Assembly: GCA_022709565.1 (NCBI GenBank)
Contig: JAKLIO010000004.1
Span: forward strand, 1 to 48,336
DNA from: Patescibacteria group bacterium
GTDB taxonomy: Bacteria > Patescibacteriota > Minisyncoccia > Moranbacterales > GWC2-37-73
DNA length: 48,336 nt
Reading direction: 5' to 3'
Shown: piece after piece, positions 3,789-42,887 of the stretch
Layout of the letters: each line of letters opens with the position of its first letter
Numbering within the stretch: position 1 is the stretch's first letter
Translations under genes and position numbers: made by a program
The notes under the pieces: generated by a model
Told to the model about the DNA's origin: nothing
The model's database searches: none
Seen by the model: only the letters and a program-made list of their open reading frames with translations

Positions 3789-5069
3789 ATGGCTAATTTG
3801 GGGGAATACTTTCAAATAAAAGGCGGGAAAAAGCTTTCCGGCAGTATAGATGTGAGGGGGTCAAAAAACGCGACTACCCCGATTTTGGCTGCAACACTGC
3901 TGACCACCGAAACTTGCACAATTTCCAATATTCCTCTTATTGAGGACGTTTTTCGCATGCTTGAGATCCTGACGGGACTGGGAGCCGCTGTCGAATGGGC
4001 AGGCGAAAGAACAGTCAAAATCTGCGCCAAGGACATTGACCCGAAACGGCTGGATGTCTCTTTGGTAAAACAGCTGAGGTCTTCAATTTTGCTTTTAGGA
4101 TCGCTTAGCGCCCGTTTTGATTCTTTTTCTTTCTATCATCCCGGCGGATGTGTGATTGGCAAGCGTCCGGTCGGAACTCACTTTGACGCTTTGGAAAAAA
4201 TGGGCGTGCATATCACCAGCACCGATGCAAAAACATATGCAATTGATGCCAAAAATAAAAAAGCGGCCCAGGTTGTGCTGAGAGAATTTTCTGTGACAGC
4301 TACGGAAAATGCCATGATGCTGGCGGCAGCTTTGCCGAGGAAAACGACAATAAAAATTGCCGCGCAGGAACCCCACGTTGAAGATTTGGGGAGATTTCTA
4401 ATATCAATGGGAGTTGATATAAAAGGCTTGGGCACGCACACTTTGGAGATTGTCGGCAAAAAAGAGCTGCATGGCGCAGAGCATGAAATTATTCCAGATG
4501 CGAATGAAGCGGCGACATTTCTCATTATGGGCGTAGCCACAAAAAGTCCGATTGTCGTCAACAATGCCAGAGAAGAAAATCTGGATTTGGTTTTGGAAAA
4601 ACTCAGAGAATTCGGAGCTGATTTTAAAATTAAAAATAATTCTATAGAAATTGTTCCGACGGAAAAACTCAAAGCTATTGAAAAAATTGATACCAGAACC
4701 TATCCGGGAATTCCAAGTGACATTCAATCGCCGTTGGGCGTGCTGGCTTCGCAAGCTGAAGGAGAAACTATGATTTTTGACACTTTATTTGAAGGACGCT
4801 TTAATTATTTGACCGAATTGGAAAAAATGGGAGGACAATCAAAAATTCTTAATCCTCACCAGGCGGTTATTCATGGTCCGGCGCACCTAAAAGGCGGCGC
4901 GATAAAAAGTTTTGATCTGAGAGCCGGGGCATCACTCATAATCGCCGCGCTCTGCGCTGAAGGGATATCGACAATAGAAGAAATTTACCAAGTTGACAGA
5001 GGTTATGAAAAAATAGAAGAAAGATTGCAAAAACTGGGAGCAGATATACGCAGAATTTCTAAATCCTAA
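3789..5069 (+). CDS. murA: UDP-N-acetylglucosamine 1-carboxyvinyltransferase MurA
   Basis: MurA transfers enolpyruvate from PEP to UDP-GlcNAc, the first committed step of peptidoglycan synthesis, in the cytoplasm. The 426-aa product has the usual length. It shows the substrate-binding GSKNATTPILAA near residue 25, the active-site loop GGCVIGKRPVGTH with the catalytic cysteine at about residue 121, TYPGIPSDIQSP, EGRFNYLTELEKMGG, DLRAGASLIIAAL and the C-terminal VDRGYEKIEE. Because Cys is kept at the active site, fosfomycin sensitivity is expected from family knowledge. The gene follows a terminator and has its own promoter immediately upstream. A Nudix gene follows after 43 bp. Confidence 0.96.
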   Translation: MANLGEYFQIKGGKKLSGSIDVRGSKNATTPILAATLLTTETCTISNIPLIEDVFRMLEILTGLGAAVEWAGERTVKICAKDIDPKRLDVSLVKQLRSSILLLGSLSARFDSFSFYHPGGCVIGKRPVGTHFDALEKMGVHITSTDAKTYAIDAKNKKAAQVVLREFSVTATENAMMLAAALPRKTTIKIAAQEPHVEDLGRFLISMGVDIKGLGTHTLEIVGKKELHGAEHEIIPDANEAATFLIMGVATKSPIVVNNAREENLDLVLEKLREFGADFKIKNNSIEIVPTEKLKAIEKIDTRTYPGIPSDIQSPLGVLASQAEGETMIFDTLFEGRFNYLTELEKMGGQSKILNPHQAVIHGPAHLKGGAIKSFDLRAGASLIIAALCAEGISTIEEIYQVDRGYEKIEERLQKLGADIRRISKS

Positions 5070-6697: not shown

Positions 6698-7852
6698 ATG
6701 AAAATTGGTATCGATGCTTCCCGGGCATTTCTAAAAGACAGGACGGGAATTGAAGAATATTCATATCAAGTTATAAAAAACCTTGCAAAAATAGAAGGAG
6801 AGCAGGCCCGCCTCGCGTCGACGAGCGGTCATCTCCGCGAGTCGAGGCGGGTTGTTTTATATTTGCGCAAAAATCAAGAAATAGATTTTACTTTGCCAAA
6901 TAATTGGAAAGTCAAAATTATAAAGTGGCCGAGGTTTTGGACGCAGTTTGGTTTGTCTTTAGAAATATTTTTGCATCCGGTTGATGCGCTTTTTATTCCG
7001 GCGCACACGGTACCATGCATTCATCCTGCCCGCACAATAGTTACGATTCATGGTTTGGAATATGAATTTTGTCCAGAGGCTTATTCTTTTTGGGAACGGT
7101 TGTATATGCGCTCAACGATCAAAAAATCATGCAAGTGGGCGAGCAAAATAATCGCTGTGTCTGAAAACACAAAAAAAGATTTGATAAAATTATACAAAGT
7201 ACCGGCAGATAAAATCGAAGTGATCTACGAAGGATATGAAAATAGTAATCAGCAACCAGTAATCAGTAACCAGAAAAATACAGAAAAAGAAAACAGTTAC
7301 GAGTTACGGGTTACGAGTTACGGGAGTTATTTATTATTCATTGGTCGTCTTGAGGAGCGCAAGAATATTGTCGGCATTATCAAATCTTTTGAAGTTCTGA
7401 AAGAGCGCTACAAGATTCCGCACAAACTGGTTTTGGCGGGGAAGCCGGGATTCGGATATGAAAAAATAAAAAATGAAATTGCCAATGTGAATTGCGTGAA
7501 AGATATCATTGAAACAGGATTTGTGAGCGCGGAAGAAAAAAATTATTTGCTAAATAATGCAGCTGTGTTTGTTTTCCCGACTTTATACGAAGGTTTTGGT
7601 TTGCCGATTTTGGAAGCGCAAAATGCCGGCGTGCCGGTAGTGGCTTCTATAGAAGCTTCTATTCCTGAAGTGGCAGGGGATAGCGCGCTGCTTGTTGATT
7701 CCAATAATGCCGAAGAAATTGCTGATGCGGTTTATAAAATTATTTCTGACAAAAATCTAAAAAAAGACCTTGTTCGAAAAGGCCTTGAAAATATCCAGCG
7801 TTTCAGTTGGGAAAAATGCGGAAAGGAAATCGCGGATATTTTAAAAAAGTAA
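6698..7852 (+). CDS. Family GT4 glycosyltransferase carrying repeat-derived insertions
   Basis: The 384-aa GT-B enzyme probably transfers a sugar from a nucleotide donor to a surface glycan at the inner face of the membrane. The N-terminal domain begins MKIGIDASRAF with RTGIEEYSY. The C-terminal donor domain has LLFIGRLEERKN and the GT4 signature EGFGLPILE followed by AQNAGVPVV. Two parts look foreign. Residues 37-52 are coded by a 45-bp hairpin element (6807-6851). Residues about 180-210, in the linker between the two domains, are coded by tandem words (GTAATCAGCAACCA and ACGAGTTACGGG). Both keep the frame and neither touches the core motifs, so the enzyme is probably active. Donor and acceptor are unknown. 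Confidence 0.88.
   Translation: MKIGIDASRAFLKDRTGIEEYSYQVIKNLAKIEGEQARLASTSGHLRESRRVVLYLRKNQEIDFTLPNNWKVKIIKWPRFWTQFGLSLEIFLHPVDALFIPAHTVPCIHPARTIVTIHGLEYEFCPEAYSFWERLYMRSTIKKSCKWASKIIAVSENTKKDLIKLYKVPADKIEVIYEGYENSNQQPVISNQKNTEKENSYELRVTSYGSYLLFIGRLEERKNIVGIIKSFEVLKERYKIPHKLVLAGKPGFGYEKIKNEIANVNCVKDIIETGFVSAEEKNYLLNNAAVFVFPTLYEGFGLPILEAQNAGVPVVASIEASIPEVAGDSALLVDSNNAEEIADAVYKIISDKNLKKDLVRKGLENIQRFSWEKCGKEIADILKK
6807..6851 (+). repeat. 45-bp hairpin repeat element, copy 1 (in frame inside a glycosyltransferase gene)
   Basis: The 45 bases fold as outer stem CCCGCCT/AGGCGGG, a five-base bulge CGCGT, stem CGAC/GTCG, tandem GA/GA mismatches, stem GCGG/CCGC and a six-base loop. A second copy lies at 42087-42131 in prmC, where the inner stem is GCAA/TTGC, so both sides changed together. 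The length is a multiple of three and adds 15 codons without a stop. Confidence 0.85.
7236..7325 (+). repeat. Tandem short-word repeat inside the glycosyltransferase linker
   Basis: The stretch contains repeated words of the type AGTAATCAGCAACC and AGTTACGAGTTACGGG. The AATCAG/AACCAG word also occurs in the spacer near 27665-27695 and twice within prmC (around 42078-42160 and 42571-42601). Here it codes for Asn/Gln/Ser-rich residues between the two domains of the enzyme. Confidence 0.6.
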
Positions 7853-30891: not shown

Positions 30892-31057
30892 TAACTTTTC
30901 TTTCTAGGATAAGAAAAGTTACAAAAGAAAGTCGCGCCGGATGAAGATACTGATGGCAAGCGCTTCGTTCTTCGCTAAAATTTCAATTCCGCTTCGCTCC
31001 TCACAAAATTTTTCAACGCTCATCACTCGCGCTTTGCCTACGTACTTCATATGGCGC
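30892..31057 (+). repeat. Structured repeat element, type A, copy 1
   Basis: It consists of a small hairpin (AACTTTTCTT/AAGAAAAGTT), a linker ACAAAAGAAAGTC and a long imperfect palindrome from GCGCCGGATGAAG (30934) to CTTCATATGGCGC (31057). The copy at 41744-41908 differs by one deletion and one substitution. The complement of the type B elements shares the core CGCTAAAATTT and ACGCTCA..CTCGC, so A and B belong to one family. The region 30756-31304 holds no convincing gene; it contains this element, a type B element and the short RNA candidate. Confidence 0.85.
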
Positions 31058-31092
31058 CTATAAAATGCGTCTTCTATATTTTGCATTTCTCT

Positions 31093-31273
31093 GCACCCTA
31101 TGAATTTCGTCAGCAAATTTAGGCAAGTGCGCGTTAAGAAATTTATCTGTCTGACCCCGACTTGTCGGGGGAGTTATAAATTTTAGCGAGCGAGCCTAGA
31201 ATTTGCCTCAGAAATTCATCGGGGTGCAAGTTTCTTTTCTGTCCACTTTTCTTTTGAAAGAAAAGTGGGCGAA
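31093..31273 (-). repeat. Structured repeat element, type B, copy 1 (opposite orientation to type A)
   Basis: A long palindrome runs from GCACCCTATGAATTTC (31093) to GAAATTCATCGGGGTGC (31227), with inner stems AGGC/GCCT and CCCCGAC/GTCGGGG. It is followed by the small hairpin CCACTTTTCTTT/AAAGAAAAGTGG (to 31273). Compared with copy 2 (41531-41716), several stem positions changed on both sides. Read on the minus strand, it has the same order as type A: small hairpin, linker, long palindrome. Confidence 0.85.
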
Positions 31274-31304
31274 TGACAGAAGAAAGGTGGAAAATAAAGT
31301 TTAT

Positions 31305-41282: not shown

Positions 41283-41393
41283 ATGGCTAAGAAAAAAGCA
41301 AAAAAGAAAGGCGTTAAAAAAGCTGCAAAAAAAGTTAAAAAAGCTGTAAAAAAGGCTCCAAAAAGAAAGAAAGCAGCTAAAAGAAAGAAATAA
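41283..41393 (+). CDS. Lysine-rich histone-like mini-protein (36 aa)
   Basis: The 36-aa product consists almost only of Lys, Ala, Arg, Val and Pro (MAKKKAKKKGVKK, later KKAPKRKKAAKRKK), like the tail of histone H1 or bacterial Hc1/Hc2 proteins. It probably binds DNA or RNA through charge alone and may compact the nucleoid or bind the ribosome. Support for a real gene is good despite its size: a TATAAT promoter, a structured leader, a very strong ribosome binding site (GGGAGGTGA, spacing 7) and a terminator behind it. It is likely to be highly expressed. Confidence 0.75.
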   Translation: MAKKKAKKKGVKKAAKKVKKAVKKAPKRKKAAKRKK

Positions 41394-41453
41394 TAACCTT
41401 TTTTAGATTACGTTTTTACTTTCTGACTTCATCGCAAGGAGGAAGGTATCAAC

Positions 41454-41487: not shown

Positions 41488-41530
41488 TGTTATTGATTTG
41501 TATTTTGTGTCTAGTGTTTTGTATTTATCA

Positions 41531-41716
41531 GCACCCTATGAATTTCGTCAGAAAATTCAAGCGAGTGAGCGTTAAGAAATTTGCATGTTTGAGTCCCGAT
41601 TAATATCGGGACGAGTTTGTAAATTTTAGCGAGCGAGCTTAGAATTTGCCCCAGAAATTCATCGGGGTGCAAGTTTCTTTTCTGTCCGCTTTTCTTTTGA
41701 AAGAAAAGCGGGCGAA
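41531..41716 (-). repeat. Structured repeat element, type B, copy 2
   Basis: The long palindrome from GCACCCTATGAATTTC (41531) to ATTCATCGGGGTGC (41670) has inner stems AAGC/GCTT and TCCCGAT/ATCGGGA, and is followed by the small hairpin CCGCTTTTCTTT/AAAGAAAAGCGG. At each of these stems copy 1 (31093-31273) has a different but again complementary pair. Here the small hairpin faces the neighbouring type A element, whereas at the first locus the small hairpins point outward. Confidence 0.85.
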
Positions 41717-41743
41717 GATTTTTAGAAATTATAATGTGTCTAC

Positions 41744-41908
41744 TAACTTTTCTTTCTAGATAAGAAAAGTTACAAAAGAAAGTCGCGCCGGATGAAGATA
41801 CTGATGGCAAGCGCTTCGTTCTTCGCTAAAATTTCAATTCCGCTTCGCTCCTCACAAAATTTTTTAACGCTCATCACTCGCGCTTTGCCTACGTACTTCA
41901 TATGGCGC
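41744..41908 (+). repeat. Structured repeat element, type A, copy 2
   Basis: Almost identical to 30892-31057 over 165 bases. It has the small hairpin AACTTTTCTT/AAGAAAAGTT and the long palindrome GCGCCGGATGAAG (41785) to CTTCATATGGCGC (41908). It ends 37 bp before the stop of the minus-strand prmC gene. Confidence 0.85.
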
Positions 41909-41945: not shown

Positions 41946-42887
41946 TTATAAAACAATCTTGCAAATTCGCCATTTGCCGGCCAAGTCTTTTGCAAAAAAT
42001 ATTTTAGCCTGAGGAAGAATATTTCTGATTAATTTTTCCAGCGGCCGTTTTTGCTCGGGGCTGAATTCTAGTAATACAGTAATCAGCCCGCCTCGCGTCG
42101 ACGAGCAATCGTCTTTGCGAGTCGAGGCGGGCAACCAGCAATCAGCAACCAGTATTTTTTTTATTTGCTTTAATAATTTTGTGTAATGTTGCAAGCCTTG
42201 CTCGGAACTGTATAGGGCGGATTTTGGTTCGTATTTTTTGACATTAATCGGAGCTGACTTATAAATTTCTTTGGAAAGATAGGGAAGATTGGCCACAACC
42301 ACTAACGTGGAATTTTCGATTTTCAATTTACAATTTTCAATAAACGGCGATAATAAATCGCCGTTAAGAAACATTATTTTTTTATCCACATTGTGAATTT
42401 TAGCGTTCTTCTTGGCAATTTTCAAAGCTTCATGGCTAATATCAGTTGCAAAATATTTTATTGTTTTTTTGATGCATGCTGCATGTTGCATGCTGTATGC
42501 TATTGAAATGATTATATTTCCGCTTCCTGTGCCTACATCTATAATAGCGGTTTTTAAATTTCTTTTTTTGCTGATTGCTGATTGCTGATTACTGATTACT
42601 GTATCTACAAGCAGTTCTGTTTCTGGGCGGGGGATTAGGTTATTTTCATTTACCATAAAATCCAAACCGTAAAATTCTTTGTGTCCGACTATATACGCAA
42701 TCGGTTCCCCCTTCACTCTTCTTCTGATATTTTTGCTGATTATTGAATTTTGCCTGCTGTTTACTGAATATTCCGGATACGTTAAAATAAATTCTCTCGT
42801 TTTATTGAGAGAATGGGCTAATATAAGCTCCAAATCGATGTAGTCGATTTTGGCTGAATATTTTTTTATTATTTCCTGAATTTGCAT
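41946..42887 (-). CDS. prmC: Peptide chain release factor N5-glutamine methyltransferase PrmC, with repeat-derived insertions
   Basis: PrmC methylates the GGQ glutamine of release factors using S-adenosylmethionine. The 313-aa product has the N-terminal helical part, the hinge GEPIAYIVGHKEFYGLDF, the motif IIDVGTGSGNI and the catalytic-site NLPYLS (NPPY in most PrmC). The target prfA lies 75 bp upstream on the same strand. The protein is about 35 residues longer than usual, and the extra parts match repeats found elsewhere: about residues 96-107 (AATCAG words), 130-138 (GCATGC words), 181-193 (AATTTTCAATTTAC words) and 243-267 (AACCAG words plus the 45-bp hairpin element). All keep the frame and lie in probable surface loops. 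Confidence 0.9.
   Translation of the reverse strand: MQIQEIIKKYSAKIDYIDLELILAHSLNKTREFILTYPEYSVNSRQNSIISKNIRRRVKGEPIAYIVGHKEFYGLDFMVNENNLIPRPETELLVDTVISNQQSAISKKRNLKTAIIDVGTGSGNIIISIAYSMQHAACIKKTIKYFATDISHEALKIAKKNAKIHNVDKKIMFLNGDLLSPFIENCKLKIENSTLVVVANLPYLSKEIYKSAPINVKKYEPKSALYSSEQGLQHYTKLLKQIKKILVADCWLPASTRKDDCSSTRGGLITVLLEFSPEQKRPLEKLIRNILPQAKIFFAKDLAGKWRICKIVL
42087..42131 (+). repeat. 45-bp hairpin repeat element, copy 2 (in frame inside prmC)
   Basis: Same fold as 6807-6851: CCCGCCT, bulge CGCGT, CGAC, GA, GCAA, loop TCGTCT, TTGC, GA, GTCG, AGGCGGG. Relative to copy 1 the inner stem changed from GCGG/CCGC to GCAA/TTGC on both sides, plus one loop base. It lies in the opposite orientation to the host gene, unlike copy 1. 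AATCAG/AACCAG words flank it on both sides. Confidence 0.85.
42571..42601 (-). repeat. Tandem short-word repeat inside prmC
   Basis: The plus strand reads CTGATTGCTGATTGCTGATT and continues with ACTGATTACTG. This is the complement of the AATCAG/AGTAATCAG words seen in the glycosyltransferase linker (7236-7290) and in the spacer near 27670. It codes for SNQQSAIS. Confidence 0.65.

Follow-up and report, generated by a model that had tools for sequence, protein, structure and literature searches.

Two hairpin pairs on one contig

The window, by which the whole 48,336-nt stretch of DNA analysed is meant, is one contig (C34) of a 742-kb draft genome that is 68% complete. It contains two loci at which a unit of type A and a unit of type B lie side by side on opposite strands, each composed of a large hairpin and a 3' tail with a small hairpin (Table 1). 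The coordinates of these units, and the difference in order and orientation between the loci that a sequence-only reading had described, were correct on re-reading of the sequence. The folding z-scores of the two loci against shuffled sequence are -8.2 and -7.6. The A copies are nearly identical, as had been claimed: across 164 nt they show one mismatch and an internal indel of one base. Between the B copies there are 28 mismatches in ~186 nt, several of them compensated. Genuine two-sided changes are found in the stem AGGC/GCCT, which became AAGC/GCTT, and in the tail hairpin, where an A-T pair became G-C. The change of CCCCGAC/GTCGGGG to TCCCGAT/ATCGGGA is likewise real, but it had been taken for compensation, and the apical module in which it sits is exchanged whole between copies; it is thus better read as module replacement.

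Table 1. Units and parts of the two hairpin pairs in the window
Feature	Position	Strand	Details
Locus 1 pair	30893-31275		A (30893-31057, -) then B (31092-31275, +); small hairpins outward
A 3' tail, locus 1	30893-30934	-	with small hairpin
A large hairpin, locus 1	30935-31057	-	
B large hairpin, locus 1	31092-31228	+	apical CCCCGAC/GTCGGGG
B 3' tail, locus 1	31229-31275	+	small hairpin CCACTTTTC..GAAAAGTGG
B tail outer arm, locus 1	runs on to ~31292		GACAGAAGAAAGGTGG
Locus 2 pair	41531-41908		B (41531-41716, +) then A (41745-41908, -); small hairpins facing
B large imperfect hairpin, locus 2	41531-41671	+	found by A-trained model; terminal stem GCACCC/GGGTGC; tandem-GA core GAGTGAGC/GCGAGCGA; apical hairpin TCCCGAT/ATCGGGA
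B 3' tail, locus 2	41672-41716	+	small hairpin CCGCTTTTC..GAAAAGCGG
A 3' tail, locus 2	41745-41785	-	small hairpin AACTTTTC..GAAAAGTT
A large hairpin, locus 2	41786-41908	-	terminal stem GCGCC/GGCGC; stem 2 GGC[A]AAGCGC/GCGCTTGCC; tandem-GA ladder; stem 3 AAATTT/AAATTT

Other features of the window lie on or near these loci. A listed 99-aa open frame (41511-41810, minus strand) overlies the hairpins of locus 2 and is most likely no gene, while a short lysine-rich open frame (MAKKKAKKKGVKKAAKKVKK...) of histone-H1-like composition is situated directly upstream of the same locus (41283-41394). A 46-bp GC-rich palindrome (GCCCGCCTCGCG...CGAGGCGGG) occurs at 6806-6851 and 42086-42131 in copies that are 89% identical. 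Both copies lie within long open frames, and the sequence has the look of a distinct palindromic repeat that has inserted into genes.

Copies and distribution of the family

A search with an A query found 12 type A copies in the host genome. A covariance model trained on A-type copies alone matched 19 places there, namely the 12 A copies and 7 B-like ones, including both B copies of the window (41547-41650 at locus 2, E 4e-8; 31112-31207 at locus 1, E 2e-5). Since a model built from A alone recovers them, A and B are two types within a single family. The model matches 17 of the 18 genomes in the host's taxonomic family. In other families of the order its matches are patchy, with six genomes matched more weakly, and no genome was matched in the class sample beyond the order. 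None of 378 further phylum genomes, in a sample that excluded the other known carriers, contained the exact core pattern, and exact matches to the 5' end of the element in named genomes all fall in Parcubacteria or Moranbacteria MAGs. The element has no match in phage, viral or plasmid collections. Among the Rfam 15 covariance models none matched at the gathering threshold, only weak, chance-level matches (E up to 1) being returned, and literature searches found no report of the family. Genomes of the Moranbacteria group are small; some nevertheless carry ten to twenty of these large hairpins.

The host genome has six single A copies, five head-to-head pairs and one tail-to-tail pair. All six internal B-like copies adjoin an A, five of them with the large hairpins adjacent. 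Two pairs (C1:112354-112750 and C2:4940-5340) have a 32-bp insert and a B tip in common, and the homology between them spans A, spacer and B and ends outside, which indicates that this pair was copied as a unit. The earlier proposal that units insert independently, rather than pairs being copied, therefore lacks support as a rule. Locus 2 is compatible with it; as the sole tail-to-tail pair, this locus may have been assembled separately.

Anatomy of the element

The core of the element is a hairpin of ~125-155 nt, to which a leader and a tail hairpin are added. Its terminal stem is variable on the element strand (GCGCC/GGCGC, GCACC/GGTGC, GCAACC/GGTTGC, GTACC/GGTAC and others), and beyond it lie ATGAAG or TTGCG arms and then TRCGTA. 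Stem 2 reads GGC-R-AAnnnC/GnnnTTGCC, with one purine unpaired. The hairpin further contains a ladder of tandem G.A steps (GAGTGATGAGC/GCGAAGARCGAA) and an asymmetric loop, GTTAA/TA, which precedes stem 3 (RRAATTT/AAATTYT). The apical palindrome is exchangeable between copies, and the second hairpin in the 3' tail is of two types or absent. A GAGC/GCGA step and the AAATTT stem are common to A, to most B-like copies and to the order-level relatives that were read. Stem 2 has a conserved GTAGGC at its foot, an internal position at which the B copies carry CGTC or CGTA.

In copies L121, L049, L113, L088 and L090 and in copies of genomes G012 and G016, other palindromes (e.g. GTCGTCCCGGA..GGGAATGACA and GACCCTTCGGGTTATAAACTCC) have time and again taken the place of the tip, loops or linkers or inserted into them, so that one palindrome is nested in another. 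In two tail-less copies (L106, 1485-1607 and 5956-6098), the hairpin is extended into the flanks by 15-25 complementary bases that are specific to the site, as though the flanks had undergone inverted duplication. No copy that was read contains an internal gene, as an autonomous version would, and the split halves that were read contain another palindrome.

Covariation and strand specificity of the fold

The sequence-only reading argued for selection on a folded form and looked to covariation in a larger alignment for support. Across 49 distinct A-type copies covariation is strong: standard pairs make up 98.9% of cells at the 21 core pair positions, 9 of which are changed on both sides, and covariation scores 0.301, where shuffled controls, which ignore relatedness, give 0.183 (sd 0.007) and slid controls, which account for relatedness in part, give at most 0.128. 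Covariation alone cannot tell selection from template switching between the arms, since switching during replication can likewise give rise to hairpins and keep them intact, as one study describes (PMC8794818).

The departures from Watson-Crick pairing are more telling, as they are strand-specific. Among 46 unique copies, G.T occurs 70 times and A.C 7 times, and G.A occurs 217 times against no C.T. When counted by distinct position, state and genus, the figures are 21 against 5 (p 0.002) and 26 against 0. Homogenisation of the arms that is blind to strand would not by itself yield this asymmetry, and selection is accordingly favoured. Strand-biased mutation should not cause it either, because the elements lie in both orientations relative to GC skew, and inspection of 11 contigs by eye revealed no clear preference for one replication strand. 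Thus, covariation and the asymmetry of non-Watson-Crick pairs together support selection on the fold. The asymmetry further suggests that evolution has kept only one DNA strand foldable, and hence that the element moves or acts in single-stranded form. It also provides a simple test between selection on a single-stranded fold and mutational homogenisation of arms, a general difficulty with bacterial palindromes.

Filled and empty sites

For nine copies from two sister species, the flanking sequences were looked up in six genomes belonging to a single genus. At five sites the element is present in some genomes and missing from others, with presence and absence read without a rooted tree, such that some absences could be losses. 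It is found in G010 and not G004 at site S1; in G010 and G012 but not G004, G016 or G014 at S2; in G004 and G016 and not G010 at S3; in G010 and G016 but not G004 (where another repeat is found), G012, G009 or G014 at S4; and in G010 only at S5. Such filled and empty orthologous sites indicate movement. The inserted unit measures ~240-270 bp in these alignments, its junctions not being resolvable to the base, as the flanks diverge and carry other repeats. Some copies are kept at orthologous sites across species and genera, and at two of these, X1 and X3, the opposite orientation or another type is sometimes present. The flank of copy L035 (query 3900-3988) contains a second high-copy repeat, TTCTGTGACAAAAAGAAAAAGGCATTCGAACGATGCAC, which occurs at many places in G004, in the related genus, and is apparently unrelated to the hairpin family.

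Gene context

Gene context was classified for 78 copies, of which 23 are convergent, 52 tandem and 3 divergent, these classes being approximate given that ORFs were called by length only. Compared with the shares expected from element-free gaps in 11 contigs, convergent regions are in excess (23/78 against 10.5%, p 3e-6) and divergent regions are avoided (3/78 against 14-19%, p <=0.003). This combination is the pattern of REPs, which are intergenic and lie downstream of genes. Within tandem regions, 23 copies are in sense and 29 in antisense; this lack of preference argues against reliance on read-through transcripts.

Candidate enzymes and explanations

HUH/Y1 transposases are the natural candidates for moving folded single strands. 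The corresponding domain, PF01797, has no match in G009, G010, G012, G014 and G016, which belong to one genus and each have 2-10 matches to the element model. RAYT-like PF01797 proteins are present in several genomes of the host family, where no consistent linkage of the element to a Y1/RAYT gene was found, and no transposase gene lies at the copies examined. Two other potential mobilisers were rejected. Reverse transcriptase (PF00078) is absent from several genomes, some of them element-rich, and integron integrase has no match above the TIGR02249 cut-off in the 18 family genomes.

The A and B units are probably best explained, taking the account as a whole, as a non-coding miniature mobile family confined to Moranbacteria-type genomes: a large REP-like element moved in trans, via a single-stranded form, by a putative enzyme. 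One strand would form a long hairpin in which the tandem-GA core is conserved while the stems co-vary freely. The putative enzyme would act in trans, recognising this folded strand, most probably in the form of single-stranded DNA and less so of RNA, and moving the element. Its copies would settle in intergenic space on the downstream side of genes, alone or in pairs with their large hairpins adjacent, and selection of the fold among active copies would give rise to strand-specific conservation. A bolder version, which can be offered only tentatively, makes this gene-less Patescibacteria element a new class, whose tandem-GA ladder would be recognised in the folded single strand by a mover other than a Y1 transposase or a reverse transcriptase, and whose tip would be a landing site for other palindromes.

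Several results count against the mobile-element explanation: PF01797 and reverse transcriptase are each missing from some carrier genomes, diverging flanks hide the exact ends and any target duplication, and neither replication strand is evidently preferred. A further one is the persistence of copies at orthologous sites, which also fits a function in place. The copies could accordingly be structured RNA elements acting in 3'-end stability, attenuation or as a small RNA, with the transcript under selection. A fold that is specific to one strand and contains G.U-type as well as tandem G.A pairs, placement downstream of genes, and the pairing kept by orthologous-site copies, such as the terminal stems at X1 in G010 and G014, would all suit a transcript. 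This reading is nonetheless unlikely in view of the random orientation in tandem regions (23 against 29), the opposite orientations at the same orthologous site (X1, X3), the lack of an Rfam match and a presence that is polymorphic between sister species.

It is less probable again that the copies are true REP/BIME elements moved by RAYT (TnpA-REP). The gene context, the head-to-head and tail-to-tail dimers, the complementary stem variants and the alternative loops are all REP-like (PMC3733652), RAYT-like PF01797 proteins do occur in several family genomes, and the foot of stem 2 carries a conserved GTAGGC. This GTAG is internal rather than terminal, however, and the core of ~125-155 nt compares with 20-40 bp in REPs; moreover, PF01797 is missing from the five genomes named above, and element and RAYT gene are not consistently linked.

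Slightly more improbable still is a neutral reading, in which template switching during replication homogenises the arms of inverted repeats and the compensatory changes are a product of mutation. Hairpins can arise and persist in this way, according to the same study (PMC8794818). Local inverted duplications in some copies (e.g. the L118 tip GCGCTGC, from GCAGCGC) and site-specific extended flanking stems are in keeping with it. Copying one arm onto the other would be expected to leave Watson-Crick arms without strand preference, and the asymmetry found (G.A 217 against C.T 0; G.T 70 against A.C 7) already weakens this explanation. Finally, attC-like integron recombination sites are scarcely credible here. 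Such sites are folded single-stranded DNA, and their strand-specific imperfect hairpins, in which one arm carries an unpaired purine and the tip varies, bear a general likeness to the element. Yet none of the family genomes has an integrase that passes the TIGR02249 cut-off for integrons, and the copies are scattered as single units or inverted pairs rather than in direct arrays.

Movement in trans of a folded single strand thus remains the preferred explanation. A mobile family in genomes that lack a recognised single-strand transposase allows a concrete search for its enzyme.

Comparison with known systems

REPs measure 20-40 bp, end on one side in an unpaired tag (GTAG or CGTC), lie downstream of genes and rarely in divergent regions, and show complementary stem variants and alternative loops (PMC3733652). 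The Moranbacteria element resembles REP, BIME and REPIN sequences in its intergenic placement downstream of genes, its rarity in divergent regions, its occurrence as singles and inverted dimers, its complementary stem variants and its exchangeable tips. It differs in a core that is several times longer, in a copy number of about ten to twenty where REPs number hundreds, in having an internal tandem-GA ladder and a second tail hairpin and no end tag, and in that several of its hosts have no RAYT.

ERIC, YPAL and the Rickettsia palindromic elements are short, non-coding, imperfect palindromes that are dispersed and MITE-like. Compared by description, the Moranbacteria element shares with them its non-coding, imperfectly palindromic nature and its dispersed sites, whereas simple terminal inverted repeats and a direct target duplication could not be shown for it. 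In the IS200/IS605 family, strand-specific folded hairpins with mismatches at the ends serve as recognition sites. The Moranbacteria element has single-strand-specific folded hairpins with mismatches of the same kind; unlike IS200/IS605, its copies have no linked TnpA, and no transposase or accessory gene was seen inside the unit.
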